A stretch of DNA of 64,000 nt, from NCBI GenBank assembly GCA_019695115.1, contig JAIBAP010000029.1:1-64000 (forward strand). Direction: 5' to 3'. How positions within the stretch are numbered: position 1 is the first letter of the stretch; each line of letters starts with the position of its first letter. The translations under genes and the position numbers were made by a program. The notes under the pieces were generated by a model that searched no databases, was not told the origin of the DNA, and worked only from the letters and a program-made list of their open reading frames with translations. This DNA comes from Caldilineales bacterium (GTDB taxonomy: Bacteria > Chloroflexota > Anaerolineae > J102). Below are positions 22,918 through 29,894 of this stretch, piece after piece.

Positions 22918-25434
22918 TTATGCGACGATATTCACCGTCCGCCCCGGCACGACGATGACCTTGCGCACGGTTTTGCCGTCCAACCATTTCTGCACGGCGG
23001 CGCTGGCCAGGGCGGTCGCCTGGATGTCGGCTTCGGCCAGGTCTGCGGCCACTTCGATGCGGTCGCGCACCTTGCCGTTGACCTGTACGGCCATCTCGAC
23101 GACATCTTCTTTGGCCAGGTCGGGGTTGGCTACGGGCCAGGGCTGTTGGTGGATGCTGTAGGGGCGCCCGATGCGTTGCCACAGTTCTTCGCTGATGTGC
23201 GGCATGGCTGGGGCCATCAGCAGCAGCAGGGTGGAGATGGCCTCGTCCCAGGCGGCTGTGCCGAAGGCGGGCGTGGTCTTGGCCTCGACCAGCGTGTTGC
23301 TGAAGCCCATCAGGGCGGCGATGACGGTGTTGAACTTGAACTGCTCGATGTCGGCCGTCACTTTTTGGATGGTCTGATGGGCGGCGCGGCGCAAAGCCCG
23401 CACTGAGCTTGCCGAAGTGTCGGGGCTGCGTTGGGCGGGAGCATCCACCACCAATGACCACACGCGCTGTAAGAAACGCTGGACGCCTTCGATGGCGCGC
23501 GGGTTCCAGGGGCCGCCCATCTCCCAGGGGCCGATGAACATCAGGAAGGCGCGCACGGTGTCGGCGCCGTATTTGCCCACGTAGTCGTCCGGGTTGACGA
23601 CGTTGCCGCGGGACTTGGACATCTTCTCGCCATCTTCGCCCAGGATCATGCCCTGGTTGAACAGCCGCAGCATGGGTTCGTCGAAGTCCACCAGCCCGGC
23701 ATCGCGCATGGCCTTGGTGAAGAAGCGCGTATACAGTAGGTGCATGGTGGCGTGCTCGATGCCGCCGGTGTACTGATCGACGGGCAGCCAGATTTTGCCC
23801 TCGGCGGGGTTCCAGGGCGTGTCGTCGGGGCTGAGCGGCTGACCGGTCTTCCAATACGGCGTCAGATAGGCGTACTGGTACCACGATGAGCACAGGAAGG
23901 TGTCCATCGTATCGGTCTCGCGCTCGGCGTCGCCGCCGCACTGCGGGCAGGTGACGTAACGGAATTCCTCATGATACTTCAGCGGGCTTTCGCCGGTGGG
24001 TTTGAATTGGGCGTCTTCGGGCAGCAGCACCGGCAGGTCGGCATAGGGCACGGGCACAGTGCCGCAGGTGGGGCAGTAGATGATGGGGATGGGCGCGCCC
24101 CACATCCGTTGGCGGCTGATCAGCCAGTCGCGCAGGCGGTAGTTGACTTTGCGCTCGCCGGCGGCGTGTTCCACCAACCAGGCGGCAGTGGCGTCGAAGC
24201 TGGCCGGCCACGGCGTGCCATCGAACTGGCCGGAGTTGACCATGACACCACCCTCTTTGAAGGTGAAGGCGGCGGGCAGCGCCCAACCGGCTTCCTCGCT
24301 CCAGGCGCTGGCTTCGCCAGAGCGGTAGGCGTCCTCGCCGACGATCACGATCGGTGTGGGCAGCCCGAACTTGCGGGCGAACTCGAAGTCGCGTTCGTCG
24401 TGCGCCGGCACGCCCATGATGGCGCCGGCGCCGTAGCTCATCAGCACATAGTCGGCGATCCAGATCGGCACCGGCTGGCCGTTGACCGGGTTGATGGCGT
24501 AGGCGCCGGTGAAGATGCCGGTCTTTTCGCCCGCTTGCTCCTGGCGCACCAGCTCGCTCTTGCGTTTGGCTTCGGCCACATAGGCCTCGACCGCCTGGCG
24601 CTGTTCTGGCGTCGTGATCGGCTCGACCAGGGCGTGTTCGGGGGCCAGCACGGCAAAACTCATGCCGAAGGTGGTGTCGGGGCGGGTGGTGAAGACGCGA
24701 AAGCTCAGGCCCTCGTGTCCTTGCACCTTCATCTCGAACTCGACGCCCTCGCTGCGTCCGATCCAGTTGCGCTGCATGGTTTTGACCCGCTCCGGCCAGT
24801 CGATCGCGTCCAGCCCGGCCAGCAGTTCATCGGCATAGTTGGTGATGCGGAACTTCCACTGGGCCAGGTTCTTGATGATCACCGGTGTGCCGCAGCGTTC
24901 GCAGTGCCGATCCTCGCCCCACACCTGCTCGCGGGCCAGGGTGGTGTTGCAGTGCGGGCAGAAATCGACCGGCGCCTCCTCGCGATAGGCCAGACCCATG
25001 TCGTAGAATTTCCTGAAGAACCACTCGGTCCACTGGTAGTAGCCGGGCAGGCAGGAGATGGCCTCGTGCTCCCAGTCGAACATCGTGCCCATCTTCTGCA
25101 GTTGCGCCCGCATGGCGGCGATGTTGCCCATCGTCCATGTGTGCGGGTGGGCGCCGTGTTTGATGGCGGCATTCTCGGCCGGCAGGCCGAAGGCGTCGAA
25201 GCCGATGGGAAACCAGACGTTGAACCCCTGCATGCGCTTGTAGCGGGCGGCCGCATCCGACGGCGACATGGCGTACCAATGCCCGGTATGAAGATCGCCG
25301 CTGGGGTAGGGGAGCATGGTCAGGAAGTACCACTTGGGCGCGGACGAAGCATCATCGCGGCGGTACAGCCCGGTGGCTTGCCACTGCTGCTGCCATTTGG
25401 GTTCGATTTGGGCGGGATCGTAGCGGGTGGACAT
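22918..25434 (-). CDS. leuS: Leucyl-tRNA synthetase
   Basis: Charges tRNA-Leu with leucine. 838 residues, usual for bacterial LeuRS. The HIGH motif appears as HTGH at 49-52 and the KMSKS motif is intact at 604-608. An editing (CP1) domain lies between about 220 and 410, and a Cys-rich zinc-like element is present (CPHCNTT, CERCG). It ends with the usual C-terminal VVPGRTVNIVA type segment. No T-box is seen in its short upstream region, which instead has a gattgg-type repeat. Confidence 0.98.
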   Translation of the reverse strand: MSTRYDPAQIEPKWQQQWQATGLYRRDDASSAPKWYFLTMLPYPSGDLHTGHWYAMSPSDAAARYKRMQGFNVWFPIGFDAFGLPAENAAIKHGAHPHTWTMGNIAAMRAQLQKMGTMFDWEHEAISCLPGYYQWTEWFFRKFYDMGLAYREEAPVDFCPHCNTTLAREQVWGEDRHCERCGTPVIIKNLAQWKFRITNYADELLAGLDAIDWPERVKTMQRNWIGRSEGVEFEMKVQGHEGLSFRVFTTRPDTTFGMSFAVLAPEHALVEPITTPEQRQAVEAYVAEAKRKSELVRQEQAGEKTGIFTGAYAINPVNGQPVPIWIADYVLMSYGAGAIMGVPAHDERDFEFARKFGLPTPIVIVGEDAYRSGEASAWSEEAGWALPAAFTFKEGGVMVNSGQFDGTPWPASFDATAAWLVEHAAGERKVNYRLRDWLISRQRMWGAPIPIIYCPTCGTVPVPYADLPVLLPEDAQFKPTGESPLKYHEEFRYVTCPQCGGDAERETDTMDTFLCSSWYQYAYLTPYWKTGQPLSPDDTPWNPAEGKIWLPVDQYTGGIEHATMHLLYTRFFTKAMRDAGLVDFDEPMLRLFNQGMILGEDGEKMSKSRGNVVNPDDYVGKYGADTVRAFLMFIGPWEMGGPWNPRAIEGVQRFLQRVWSLVVDAPAQRSPDTSASSVRALRRAAHQTIQKVTADIEQFKFNTVIAALMGFSNTLVEAKTTPAFGTAAWDEAISTLLLLMAPAMPHISEELWQRIGRPYSIHQQPWPVANPDLAKEDVVEMAVQVNGKVRDRIEVAADLAEADIQATALASAAVQKWLDGKTVRKVIVVPGRTVNIVA

Positions 25435-25558: not shown

Positions 25559-25786
25559 TCACAACTTCTCCATGAAGTCGTCTGGTGAAATCTTGGCCTG
25601 TCTCAAGATGCTGCGTAGAGTGCCAACGGCAAGCTCGCGATGTAACGGCACCACGCATCCAACATCGCCGTCTTGTCCTGGTTTCATCAAAATGACGTGG
25701 CTGCCGCGTTGTCGAACCTGGACGAACCCAAACCGTTCTAGCGCACGGATAGCTTCGGCGCCCGACACGCGTTGGAGCTTAGGCAT
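25559..25786 (-). CDS. hicA: HicA-family toxin
   Basis: A 75-residue mRNA interferase-like protein of the HicA/YcfA family. It has a double-stranded-RNA-binding fold with catalytic His at position 30 (RQRGSHVILMK) and the downstream VVPLHRELAVGTLRSIL segment. It overlaps the antitoxin gene by eight bases, typical of co-translated toxin-antitoxin pairs. Confidence 0.92.
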   Translation of the reverse strand: MPKLQRVSGAEAIRALERFGFVQVRQRGSHVILMKPGQDGDVGCVVPLHRELAVGTLRSILRQAKISPDDFMEKL

Positions 25787-25997
25787 AGACGGGTATTTCA
25801 GCCTCGAAGGTGGTCAGAAGAGGATGGGTTACATCAGGGAAAGGAAACACTTCCAGGTAAAGCTCGGTGGCTTCCCTCAGATTGAGCAGCGCTTCCTCGA
25901 TGGTGTAACCCTGGCTAACAGTGCCAACTTCGGGGCAGTCGGCGACGAAGATATCTTCTTCGCGGTGCAAAATGGCTGTGAACATTCGTATCGCCAC
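25779..25997 (-). CDS. hicB: HicB-family antitoxin
   Basis: A 72-residue partial RNase-H-fold antitoxin (EEDIFVADCPEVGTVSQGYT, then EEALLNLREATELYLE). It is the short form without an added DNA-binding domain. The GTG at 25997 is supported by GGAGGT seven bases upstream. Antitoxin precedes toxin. Confidence 0.9.
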   Translation of the reverse strand: MAIRMFTAILHREEDIFVADCPEVGTVSQGYTIEEALLNLREATELYLEVFPFPDVTHPLLTTFEAEIPVYA

Positions 25998-26544: not shown

Positions 26545-27486
26545 CTACGCGCCCGGCCACTCGCCTTCAGCATAGACATAGTCCAGCCAGCCGTGCGGGT
26601 CGAGCTTGCCTTCGGTGATGGCGAAGAAGCGTTCCTGGATGGCCTTGGTGATGGGGCCGCGGCTGCCGGAGCCGACGGCGATGCGATCCACCGAACGGAC
26701 GGGCGTGATCTCGGCGGCGGTGCCGGTGAAGAACAACTCGTCGGCGATGTACAGCATCTCCCGCGTCAGGTAGCCGTATTGCACCTCGTAGCCCAGGTCG
26801 CGGGCCAGGGTGATGGCGCAGTCGCGGGTGATGCCGCTGAGGATGGAGGCGGAGAGCGGCGGGGTGACGATGGCGCCGTCGCGGATCAGGAACAGGTTCT
26901 CGCCGGAGCCTTCGGAGACATAGCCGTGGATGTCGAGGCTGATGCCTTCGTTGAAGCCGCCGTCGTGGGCTTCCATGGCCACATATTGGCTGTTGACATA
27001 TTGGCCGCCGATCTTGCCCAGCGGCGTGAGCGAACCGGGCGGCATCCGGCGCCACGAACTGACGTGTACATCCACGCCCTGTTCGATGGCCTCTGGCCCC
27101 AGATAGCGACCCCAGGGCACGGTGCCGATGGCGATCTCGACCGGGCATTTGCGGCCATCGACGCCCAGGGCCTCGTAGCCGCGAAAGACGATGGGGCGGA
27201 TATAGCAGGAATCCTGCTTGTTAGCGCGAATGGCGGACTTGGTGGCGGCAATCAAGTCATCGACGCTGTATTGCAGGGGGATGCGCATGATCTTGCACGA
27301 ATCGTGCAGGCGGCGCATGTGTTCGCGACCGCGGAAGATGGCGGGGCCGCGCGGGGTGCTGTAGGCGCGAATGCCTTCGAAGGCGCTGGAGCCGTAGTGG
27401 AGTGCGTGGGTGAAGACATGGACATTGGCCTGATCCCACGGGATCAGCGAGCCGTTCATCCACATCCAATCTGCGCGCATGGGCAT
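26545..27486 (-). CDS. ilvE: Branched-chain amino acid aminotransferase
   Basis: Transfers the amino group from Glu to the keto acids of Leu, Ile and Val (last biosynthetic step). 313 residues, fold-type IV PLP enzyme. The PLP Lys is K158 in PLGKIGGQYVNS; the cofactor phosphate and substrate motifs EGISLDIHGYVSEGSGEN and TGTAAEITPV are intact. The start at 27486 follows AAGGA. Regulation is visible: a T-box antiterminator and terminator lie 140-190 bases upstream, consistent with control by uncharged branched-chain tRNA. Confidence 0.95.
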   Translation of the reverse strand: MPMRADWMWMNGSLIPWDQANVHVFTHALHYGSSAFEGIRAYSTPRGPAIFRGREHMRRLHDSCKIMRIPLQYSVDDLIAATKSAIRANKQDSCYIRPIVFRGYEALGVDGRKCPVEIAIGTVPWGRYLGPEAIEQGVDVHVSSWRRMPPGSLTPLGKIGGQYVNSQYVAMEAHDGGFNEGISLDIHGYVSEGSGENLFLIRDGAIVTPPLSASILSGITRDCAITLARDLGYEVQYGYLTREMLYIADELFFTGTAAEITPVRSVDRIAVGSGSRGPITKAIQERFFAITEGKLDPHGWLDYVYAEGEWPGA

Positions 27487-27535
27487 GGGTTGTTCCTTGT
27501 AAAGAGAGAAATTGGAGAGTAGGGGGTAGGGATTA

Positions 27536-27622
27536 GGGATTAGAGATTGGTTATTGGTTATTGAATCTCCAATCTCCAATCGCTAATCTCCAATAACCAA
27601 TAACCAATAACCAATAACCAAA
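27536..27622. repeat. Tandem repeats gattgg and ttggttattg types
   Basis: Units of aatctccaatc and ccaataacca fill the ilvE leader between the terminator and start codon. The same two motifs occur upstream of eno (35958-36010) and, in short form, before leuS (25453-25475). Confidence 0.9.
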
Positions 27623-27623
27623 C

Positions 27624-27658
27624 AAAAAATCCCCTCGTCCAGACAGGGACGAAGGGAT
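27624..27658 (-). terminator. Intrinsic terminator of the ilvE T-box
   Basis: On the minus strand a 12-bp stem with one G-U pair (27658-27647 with 27640-27629), loop of six, then TTTTTTGTT. It overlaps the 3' strand of the antiterminator, the classical T-box expression platform. Confidence 0.92.
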
Positions 27659-27720
27659 CTCCGCGGTGCCACCCTGGTTGTCGGAAAGGGTGGGGCGTGG
27701 AAACCACGCCCCAAGAAATG

Positions 27721-27796
27721 TGGTGGAGCAGAAGGGACTTGAACCCATGACCCCCACAATGCCATTGTGGTGCTCTCCCAGCTGAGCTACTGCCCC
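27721..27796 (-). tRNA. tRNA-Ala (GGC) inside the T-box leader
   Basis: Acceptor GGGGCAG/CTGCTCC, discriminator A, loop ATGGCAT giving anticodon GGC. Unlike every other tRNA gene here, the 3' CCA is encoded (27723-27721). It lies between stem III and the antiterminator of the ilvE T-box and is followed by the hairpin ggggcgtgg/ccacgcccc. Processing of this tRNA would cut the leader in two. Confidence 0.95.
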
Positions 27797-27851
27797 AAAA
27801 GGGATTTCCGACCACTCGACGCTATAACGGGCTGACCCGTCGCCGACTAGG

Positions 27852-27998
27852 CAGGGCGTGGAGACCACACACCAGGGCGTGGAGACCACACACCAGGGCG
27901 TGGAGACCACACACCAGGGCGTGGAGACCACACACCAGGGCGTGGAGACCACGCACCAGGGCGTGGAGACCACGCACCAGGGCGTGGAGACCACGCCC
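27852..27998. repeat. Seven tandem 21-bp repeats (cagggcgtggagaccac...)
   Basis: Units begin at 27852, 27873, 27894, 27915, 27936, 27957 and 27978. The core ggcgtgg-aga-ccacgcc is palindromic; early plus-strand copies have cacacac and later ones cacgcac at the end. A related palindrome, ggggcgtgg-aaa-ccacgcccc, lies at 27692-27712. The array sits between stem I and stem III of the T-box leader. An ORF through it has no other support. Confidence 0.95.
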
Positions 27999-28156
27999 CT
28001 ACGTTCATCGGCGCCGCTCCCAGGCGAGTTCGGCCTTTGCGGACTCGTGACCGCCTTTGCCAGGCTTACACTCTCCCTGGCTCGCTGTCGAGTTGGCTTA
28101 CTGCTCCTGTTCGCTGCGATGTTGTTGTGAGATTGTTGCCCGGGGTGCCAGGCTAG

Positions 28157-28229
28157 TGGAGCTGAGGGGATTCGAACCCCTGACTTCTACAGTGCGATTG
28201 TAGCGCTCTCCCAGCTGAGCTACAGCCCC
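28157..28229 (-). tRNA. tRNA-Ala (CGC)
   Basis: Acceptor GGGGCTG/CAGCTCC, discriminator A, loop ATCGCAC giving anticodon CGC; CCA is not encoded. A strong promoter precedes it and the T-box stem I follows within about 20 bases with no terminator, so it appears to head the transcript that runs into ilvE. Confidence 0.95.
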
Positions 28230-28241
28230 GGAGTGAGTGTT

Positions 28242-28270
28242 AGTCTAGCCGGGGTGGGGGCTTTTGTCAA
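28242..28270 (-). promoter_or_regulatory. Promoter of tRNA-Ala(CGC) and probably the ilvE leader
   Basis: On the minus strand TTGACA (28270-28265), 17-base spacer, TAGACT (28247-28242). No second promoter is evident between this tRNA and the T-box. Confidence 0.8.
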
Positions 28271-28304
28271 GAAAAAGAAGCGGAGCGCGCGCAAGGTTCT
28301 GCGC

Positions 28305-29894
28305 CTACATCCCCCAAACCGTGATTTCCCGCCCCTCGTGTCGCTCCTCGCGGCGAAACAGCTTATTTTCCCACGGCTTGCCGGGCGTGCGATCGAAGAT
28401 GATGAGGTGTGATTCTTCGGCTCCGCAGCGGTCGGCATAGGCCCAGGTTTGGGCCAGGCCCTCGGCCACGGTTGCTTCTAGCGATCCGTGCAACAACTTG
28501 AGTTCTATCACCACCCGCTGCACTGGCTTACCCGCCCCCAGTTCTCCGGCCAACGGCCAGAGAATGAGCAGATCCGTTCGTTTGCGGCCCAGACCATACT
28601 CGCGTTCGATGCGACCGCCCCCGTTCACAATCCGCTGCAAGAATGCCTGCATCAGCAGTTGCGGGCCTGCTTCGCGATAGTTGAATCGTTCCACCCAGCT
28701 TTCGGAATGCTCGCGGAAGAACTGTTGGAAAGCCGAAAGCAGCTCATCCATGTTCAGCCGGCCATCTGCCCGCACATACCAGGCGGCCTGCTGCACCATC
28801 GTGTCCTGGGTCACGCTGGTGAGGGTGCGCGGGATGATCTCGCGATAGATGGGGTTGGCGATGGCTACATGGGGTTTGCGCCGGATCAAGCCCAGATCGA
28901 CGACGTATTGCAGGTCGTCTTCGGGCACGTTGGCCGGCATGCCATCGCCCACCAGCAGAGCTTCGATCACCTGACGCACGCGCGCCTCGAGCAGTTTATC
29001 GGCCAATTGGTCGAGATGCACCTCCCGTCGTTCGATCAGGTTCTCTTTGGCCCGAAAAACCAGCTCGACGCTGATCGACCGGCTGCGATCGCGGCCTTCG
29101 CGCATCTGAAAACAGCTTTCGTAGGCCAGAGCATTTACCAGCCACGGCTGCCCTTGCGTCAAATCCCAGATTGCGGCCATTGCTTCCGGCTCGAATCGCT
29201 GCCCGGTCTCGCTCGTGTGCTGCATCAACAGTCGCTCCGTATCCTCGCGACTGAAGTCGCCCAGCCGCAGGGAGGCGGCCTTGATATTGAAGGCGCTGCC
29301 GCCGGTGATGATCTGCCTGGTGCTGTCCGAGCGGATGCGGTAATCCCGGACATCGCGCACACCGCAAAGAATGACGCTTTGGGGGAAGGCTTGCGGCCGG
29401 TCGAGACAGCCTGCGCGCAGTTGACGAAGGACGGTGATAAGGAGGTCGCCTACGAGGGCATCGATTTCGTCGATCAGAAGAACGGTGGGCTGGTCCGAAG
29501 CTCTGCACCAGCGACTCAGAAAAACGCTCAGTGAGGGTGCAGGCCGGGCGATCATCTCAGCGGCAATGGCTTCGGCCGTGGTGTCGCCCAATGTCAGGGC
29601 CGCTTTCTCCCCGATCTCGCGTAACAGAACCGTCACGCCCTCGCTTACGTTCTGACGATAGCCTTGCGCCACCTCGAAATTGACATAAAGACAGCGAAAG
29701 CGTCTTTGATGATTCAGGTGCACCATCAACGCCTTCAGGGTCGAGGTCTTGCCTGTCTGTCGGGGGGCGTGGAGGACGAAGTACTTCTGTTGGTCGATCA
29801 GGGTCATGACGTCTTCCAGATCGATGCGATCCAGGGGTGGGAGGCAATAGTGTTCGTCGCATCGAACCGGGCCGACGGTGTTGAAGTAGCGCAT
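28305..29894 (-). CDS. AAA ATPase fused to PD-(D/E)XK-like domain
   Basis: A 529-residue protein. P-loop APRQTGKTST (43-52), Walker B TVLLIDEIDAL (about 137-147) and sensor region VILCGVRDVRDY form an AAA domain of the archaeal-like ATPase/AAA_35 type. The last ~130 residues look like the nuclease-fold domain often attached to it (RKRTDLLILWPL, then VVIELKLLHGS, matching D-x(n)-ExK). Proteins of this kind are common and multicopy in some bacteria and are suspected of mobile-element or defence roles; the function is not established. It has its own promoter at 29936-29965. Confidence 0.8.
   Translation of the reverse strand: MRYFNTVGPVRCDEHYCLPPLDRIDLEDVMTLIDQQKYFVLHAPRQTGKTSTLKALMVHLNHQRRFRCLYVNFEVAQGYRQNVSEGVTVLLREIGEKAALTLGDTTAEAIAAEMIARPAPSLSVFLSRWCRASDQPTVLLIDEIDALVGDLLITVLRQLRAGCLDRPQAFPQSVILCGVRDVRDYRIRSDSTRQIITGGSAFNIKAASLRLGDFSREDTERLLMQHTSETGQRFEPEAMAAIWDLTQGQPWLVNALAYESCFQMREGRDRSRSISVELVFRAKENLIERREVHLDQLADKLLEARVRQVIEALLVGDGMPANVPEDDLQYVVDLGLIRRKPHVAIANPIYREIIPRTLTSVTQDTMVQQAAWYVRADGRLNMDELLSAFQQFFREHSESWVERFNYREAGPQLLMQAFLQRIVNGGGRIEREYGLGRKRTDLLILWPLAGELGAGKPVQRVVIELKLLHGSLEATVAEGLAQTWAYADRCGAEESHLIIFDRTPGKPWENKLFRREERHEGREITVWGM

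Follow-up and report, generated by a model that had tools for sequence, protein, structure and literature searches.

A Leu-specific T-box leader with a tRNA-Ala(GGC) gene in the apical loop of Stem III

The leader preceding ilvE in the stretch of Caldilineales DNA analysed here (64,000 nucleotides, referred to as the window) is best read as a Leu-specific, transcription-attenuating T-box in which the apical loop of Stem III is replaced by the genome's tRNA-Ala(GGC) gene, usually its only one. The RNA would have a dual function, as regulator and as tRNA precursor. Judged from sequence comparison, we put the probability of this reading at roughly four in five. A composite T-box/tRNA leader had been proposed in the preliminary description of this DNA, and it proved to be real: the leader can be aligned over the full length of the Rfam T-box model RF00230 and more than 100 genomes show the same arrangement.

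Leader anatomy and T-box identity

On the minus strand between 28270 and 22918 the order is a promoter-like site, tRNA-Ala(CGC), the T-box leader, ilvE, a cupin-like gene, a hicAB-like pair and leuS (Table 1). The leader is complete and Leu-specific, with Stem I, Stem II, Stem IIA/B, Stem III, antiterminator and terminator. The T-box sequence and the U-tailed terminator reported in the preliminary description are present, the terminator re-employing the 3' strand of the antiterminator. The intact tRNA-Ala(GGC) that it had reported was also found, and the eight-base inverted repeat GTCGGAAA/TTTCCGAC does close the insertion into a helical arm. The naming of the helices has to be revised. The hairpin at 27846-27814, described as stem III, is Stem IIA/B with its F-box and the inverted repeat is the true Stem III; the tRNA, said to lie between stem III and the antiterminator, is actually inside Stem III. 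Published T-box motifs, as given in PMC7583486, have the order 5'-RRRxG-Stem III-AA-3' and locate the F-box in Stem IIA/B. The window reads GAGUG-GUCGGAAA...UUUCCGAC-AA-CCA-GGGUGGCACC, that is Stem III and its flanks, and the MFE fold of 27822-27676 has a closed 8-bp Stem III around the acceptor stem, D arm and anticodon arm of the tRNA and an extra hairpin.

Table 1. Features of the T-box leader and its operon in the window
Feature	Position	Strand	Basis
Sigma-70-like promoter TTGACA-17-TAGACT, 5' of the first tRNA	28242-28270	-	Promoter scan
tRNA-Ala(CGC), 5' of the T-box, without encoded CCA	28156-28229	-	Kept in Chloroflexota leaders
T-box Stem I (AGUA motif, distal AG bulge)	28014-28117	-	RF00230 alignment
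Specifier CUC (Leu), context GAA-CUC-G	28026-28028	-	RF00230 alignment and related leaders
Stem II (CGCCGAUGAA...UAGUCGGCG), S-turn motifs retained, array in apical loop	27841-28013	-	RF00230 alignment, 155-nt insertion
21-bp tandem array in Stem II apical loop, 6.8 copies (about 7), 99% match	27852-27994	-	
Stem IIA/B with F-box CCGUUA (27830-27825)	27825-27841	-	Anatomy according to PMC7583486
Stem III 5' arm GUCGGAAA, purine string GAGUG directly before	27805-27812	-	Alignment; arms covary in relatives
tRNA-Ala(GGC) in Stem III apical loop; G3.U70, A73, CCA encoded	27721-27796	-	
Hairpin GGGGCGUGG...CCACGCCCC, between tRNA and Stem III 3' arm	27692-27712	-	
Stem III 3' arm UUUCCGAC, then AA	27680-27687	-	
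T-box sequence AGGGUGGCACCGCGG, bulge UGGC	27661-27675	-	
Antiterminator	about 27676-27644	-	
U-tailed intrinsic terminator, mutually exclusive with antiterminator	27625-27662	-	
ilvE, branched-chain amino acid transaminase	26545-27486	-	NCBIfam TIGR01122/NF005146 above cut-off
leuS, leucyl-tRNA synthetase, farther 3'	22918-25434	-	TIGR00396 above cut-off

RF00230 aligned full length (model 1-219) to 28123-27642 with 45.7 bits (E 9e-9), and the 5' half, on which the preliminary description had made its assignment depend, scores as a T-box in this alignment. Two large insertions, 272 nt together, interrupt it: the array accounts for 155 nt in one helix loop, and tRNA-Ala(GGC) for 117 nt in that of the last helix 5' of the antiterminator. 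The leader stays under the gathering score of 93 bits, an operational cut-off that does not define the structure, evidently on account of the insertions. Because the score falls below this cut-off, a default scan of the window lists the tRNAs alone. Other tRNA-bearing leaders are above the gathering score (Desulfallas, 129 bits; S. palmitatica, 121; S. wolfei methylbutyratica, 105.5; Thermomicrobiaceae, 105; Dictyobacter, 104). In all five the tRNA match is nested in the last helix, and they contain the tRNA and lack the array. The S. palmitatica alignment skips 90 nt in the loop of that helix, which is filled by a separate 68-bit tRNA match.

The individual T-box features agree with the model. 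The Leu specifier CUC in Stem I matches the downstream ilvE and leuS, and the corresponding motif AACTC[AG] is found in 130 of 133 related leaders among the matches listed. Stem II and the putative Stem IIA/B pseudoknot with its F-box are recognised both by sequence motifs and by the alignment, the terminator excludes the antiterminator, and the RRRxG-Stem III-AA motif is followed by a UGGN bulge, both flanks being retained in 127/133 leaders among the matches listed. The bulge is UGGU in 120 of the 134 leaders among these matches; the UGGC of the window, which gives a C-A mismatch to the tRNA-Leu discriminator and so speaks against the Leu reading, occurs in 10 other leaders. The predicted cognate ligand, tRNA-Leu(GAG) with A73, is encoded elsewhere in the same genome (G000:C11). 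An Ala specifier (GCC overlapping GAACUCGCC) was considered and rejected, as the sequence in two related leaders (L055 and L060) is GAACUCACC and the genes behind are Leu genes. With a Leu specifier (CUC), the leader does not have tRNA-Ala as its sensed ligand.

The 21-bp array reported in the preliminary description is present but is not part of the device. The close relatives L038 and L039 do not have it in their Stem II loop, and the palindrome that makes up its unit (GGGCGUGGUCUCCACGCCC) is dispersed through the genome in about 20 exact copies; from these comparisons the array is taken to be a recent repeat insertion outside the conserved structure. The other T-boxes of this genome (L001-L005) contain 7-bp ATTGGTT-type repeat stretches, some of them inverted repeats. 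Several of these stretches lie between Stem I and Stem III, so the regions between the two look like tolerated insertion sites.

Distribution, the embedded tRNA and Stem III pairing

Comparison with related ilvE leaders, a check suggested at the outset, gave the same order in all nearest relatives having the leader 5' of ilvE. GTDB genomes were searched for any standard T-arm followed by a T-box core within about 26-85 nt, and at least 120 stretches matched. The great majority of the matched stretches listed carry tRNA-Ala(GGC) as identified by ARAGORN; with other loci added and duplicates removed, there were at least 134 non-redundant leaders with an embedded tRNA-Ala(GGC), from several phyla, so that the rarity implied in the preliminary description does not hold. 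Five further leaders among the matches listed carry other tRNAs and lack T-box sensor parts. Embedded Arg, Thr and Glu tRNAs (L111, L159, L167 and L187) were set aside as chance, there being no T-box parts 5' of them.

The carriers in Bacillota are Syntrophomonas, Thermosyntropha, Desulfotruncus and Desulfallas, and the other carrier phyla are Chloroflexota (including Ktedonobacteria, Thermomicrobia and Caldilineae), Armatimonadota and Atribacterota; a few taxon labels (Proteobacteria and Desulfovibrio MAGs) are possibly misbinned. Isolates are found among the carriers in Syntrophomonas, Desulfotruncus and Dictyobacter. When phyla were sampled evenly, the pattern was found in 41 of the 399 genomes from Chloroflexota and in 49 of the 398 from the S. 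wolfei phylum, the matched 3' ends being Ala-like with one exception, and the reversed pattern matched none of the 797 genomes of the two samples. Leaders of the Atribacterota type (L129, L135, L145 and L173) have the embedded tRNA-Ala(GGC) together with a divergent Stem I (AAACTCACC context) and no recognisable F-box.

The first gene after the leader is leuS in 102 and ilvE in 24 of the 134 leaders among the matches listed. In relatives leuS stands directly behind the leader, unlike in the window, where hicAB-like genes and a 745-bp gap part it from the upstream genes and it may therefore have its own promoter. The small HicA/HicB-like pair (25559-25997, recognised by eye), which follows the ilvE-cupin genes and precedes leuS, may be what cut leuS off from the T-box operon. 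In Desulfotruncus and a Peptococcaceae MAG (L081 and L131, both Bacillota) the gene behind the tRNA-bearing Leu T-box is not leuS but one resembling an AMP-binding ligase, a possible extension of the regulon.

The embedded tRNA of the window has a cloverleaf, a GGC anticodon, G3.U70 and A73, and it is, as originally noted, the only one of the window's eight tRNAs with an encoded CCA. G3.U70 and A73 are alanine identity elements, and both are present in 134/134 embedded tRNAs of the leaders among the matches listed, of which 92 encode CCA and 42 do not. It is the only tRNA-Ala(GGC) gene found in the window's genome. By a general sequence pattern, which a divergent gene could escape, exactly one copy, the embedded one, was counted in 59 of the 64 distinct carrier genomes with a match, and two in the remaining five, which are large Ktedonobacteria-type genomes. 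Because the embedded gene is usually the sole copy, maturation of tRNA-Ala(GGC) from the leader is most likely required, and the same circumstance suggests that the tRNA is processed, aminoacylated and active in translation.

A generic duplex-energy swap test of the Stem III arms discriminated poorly, as any GC-rich pairing counts, and was replaced by an anchored test in which both arms were placed by their flanking motifs and not by pairing. Across 94 distinct arm pairs, standard pairs filled 76% of cells compared with 53% after shuffling (maximum 57% in 1000 shuffles), and at most 47% were paired when the arms were slid by 1-3. Five or six pair types were found at every position, and we conclude from this test that the pairing around the tRNA is kept by compensatory change. 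Between the tRNA 3' end and the Stem III 3' arm, L038-L051 have a family-specific hairpin of the GACCGGTCG...CGACCGGTC type, possibly a processing or mRNA 5'-end element; the window genome has a palindromic repeat at this site, compared with an GACCGGUC-type hairpin in other family members.

Proposed regulation and alternative readings

We propose that the tRNA(s), the sensor and the operon share one promoter. The site at 28270-28242 is the sole promoter-like site within 27500-28400, where shuffled sequence gives 0.2, and in the 133 loci among the matches listed promoter-like sites were found 5' of Stem I in 69 compared with inside in 6; against the proposal, only about half of the loci have a strong match. 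The tRNA-Ala would already have been transcribed when RNA polymerase arrives at the terminator and, because the tRNA precedes the attenuator, every transcript would yield tRNA-Ala(GGC). Uncharged tRNA-Leu(GAG) would bridge Stem I and the antiterminator and allow read-through into ilvE or leuS, and charged tRNA-Leu would lead to termination; RNase P and 3' processing would free the tRNA both from leaders that have terminated and from read-through mRNAs. The regulated terminator would in this way separate a constitutive stable RNA from a conditionally expressed mRNA. Stem III may tolerate the tRNA because only its base and the flanking purines contact the discriminator, the helix holding these together. 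The sequences establish the anatomy, its conservation, the covariation, the gene content and a mostly single gene copy, whereas we infer co-transcription, maturation and antitermination as steps of this scheme.

A more far-reaching version, which we regard as possible though clearly tentative, is that the leader is an ancient two-in-one RNA, riboswitch and obligate tRNA precursor, in which processing of tRNA-Ala and the leucine-starvation decision are mechanistically coupled and affect each other. RNase P cutting before the decision could sever the sensor from the antiterminator and force termination; alternatively, Stem III stacked on the acceptor stem, with leader and trailer paired, could delay processing until the decision has been made. 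Such coupling would fit the short distances between tRNA and Stem III (medians, arms included, of 12 nt 5' and 18 nt 3' of the tRNA), the continuation of Stem III directly into the acceptor stem in some Bacillota (Desulfotruncus, with spacers of 0-2 nt), and the conservation of embedding over several phyla even though a tandem layout would suffice for co-expression. However, the tandem relatives described below retain the T-box without embedding, family f1 has long spacers and an extra hairpin, and at customary elongation rates the decision is expected within seconds after tRNA synthesis. If the coupling is true, it would link synthesis of one tRNA to control of the synthetase for another amino acid.

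It is rather unlikely that the tRNA came into the Stem III loop by accident and is a passive passenger, kept as the sole copy, expressed from a hidden internal promoter and without regulatory meaning. The Stem II and Stem III loops do accept insertions, as seen in the repeat-filled T-boxes of this genome and noted in PMC7583486, and the gene is mostly single copy. A hidden promoter does not agree with the window leader, where no promoter-like site was detected between Stem I and the tRNA (an internal promoter having been an early concern), or with the 6/133 loci elsewhere; accidental placement does not account for compensatory changes that maintain Stem III or for the joining of the same tRNA with the same Leu T-box in distant phyla.

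Still less probable, and in our view very doubtful, is an action of the embedded tRNA-Ala as a cis ligand or structural mimic whose own CCA end or charging acts on the antiterminator as an alanine signal. The tRNA is only 12-59 nt away from the UGGN bulge and CCA is encoded in most of the leaders, but the specifier is Leu, 42/134 embedded tRNAs have no encoded CCA, and an unprocessed CCA end carries a 3' extension that should block the bulge like an amino acid; the AlaRS identity elements are kept as in a working tRNA. Finally, the assembly of the window's genome comprises 135 contigs and, like its nearest named relatives, it is probably a MAG, but a chance neighbourhood or the assembly joining error considered in the preliminary description can be dismissed given isolates, single-contig and many other independent assemblies among more than 100 genomes, and the failure of the reversed pattern to match.

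Origin and relation to known systems

Other Anaerolineae-type genomes (L244-L250) have the order tRNA-Ala(CGC)-tRNA-Ala(GGC)-T-box-leuS with a short Stem III loop, the empty Stem III of L244 being GCCGGGAAA-UUUUC-UUUCCGGGC. A Thermomicrobia-like locus (L265) has tRNA-Ala(GGC)-T-box-leuS, and still other genomes lack the T-box and have tRNA-Ala(GGC)-leuS, or have the T-box and lack the tRNA. As the relatives with an empty Stem III keep the tRNA upstream, on the same strand and before the terminator, the position before the attenuator seems to be what is conserved. On a LeuRS tree the embedded state occurs to either side of the midpoint, tandem and empty forms branch from within it, and it requires 9 changes compared with 27.6 when shuffled; the sample is enriched for embedded cases, and direction and ancestral state on this tree are suggestions only. 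A single old origin, by descent or early transfer, is favoured because tRNA, specifier, position and gene are invariant.

Partial arrangements were also seen. In an Anaerolineales MAG (L157), tRNA-Ala(CGC) lies 15 nt before an antiterminator/terminator 5' of ilvE with no Stem I, which looks like the remnant of a T-box that has lost its sensor and the GGC tRNA. Upstream of another ilvE (L064, in G033) a tRNA-Ala pair is followed by what is apparently the terminator half of a T-box alone, which suggests that the T-box decayed while the tRNAs remained. In the window's genome a tRNA-Val(GAC) is directly 5' of a compact T-box-like match (L003, G000:C60:19212-19523) and is not embedded.

In the textbook view, a T-box binds its tRNA in trans. 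A T-box that also holds a tRNA within its discriminator domain, and is often the only source of that tRNA, would combine the functions of regulatory RNA and tRNA precursor, and it raises the question of the order of riboswitch decision and RNase P processing; its conservation in several phyla and presence in cultured species make it directly testable. It is also a warning that automated annotation lists the tRNA and may miss a T-box that, as in the window, is below the Rfam cut-off. The preliminary description knew of no T-box with an embedded tRNA, and none was found in the literature searched, which did not cover two older T-box surveys where earlier notice is possible. The conserved nesting of a tRNA in a T-box is apparently undescribed, and absolute priority is not claimed.

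In tRNA-mRNA polycistronic transcripts and attenuator-ended tRNA operons, a tRNA shares its transcript with a protein gene downstream and is released by processing, whereas here the tRNA interrupts, and is folded within, the RNA controlling that gene. With the class I Leu T-boxes (RF00230; leuS and ilv-leu leaders of Bacillota) the leader shares the CUC of Stem I, the S-turn of Stem II, the F-box of Stem IIA/B, the purine motif of Stem III, the UGGN bulge, the terminator and the leuS/ilvE target; it differs in the complete tRNA-Ala(GGC) in the Stem III apical loop and in doubling as a tRNA precursor. The tandem relatives have the same tRNA, T-box specificity, gene and strand and also carry the tRNA before the attenuator, but place it before Stem I and have an ordinary short Stem III loop. 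Insertions in Stem III, helix A2 or Stem II have been noted without an assigned function in PMC7583486, and the passages on them make no mention of an embedded tRNA. As in those T-boxes, a large insertion in a peripheral loop leaves the core preserved; here, in contrast, the insertion is a defined, working-type tRNA and the same one in several phyla. Stem III is seen to be extensible that far, and one Stem III insertion of reportedly unknown function gains a definite identity.
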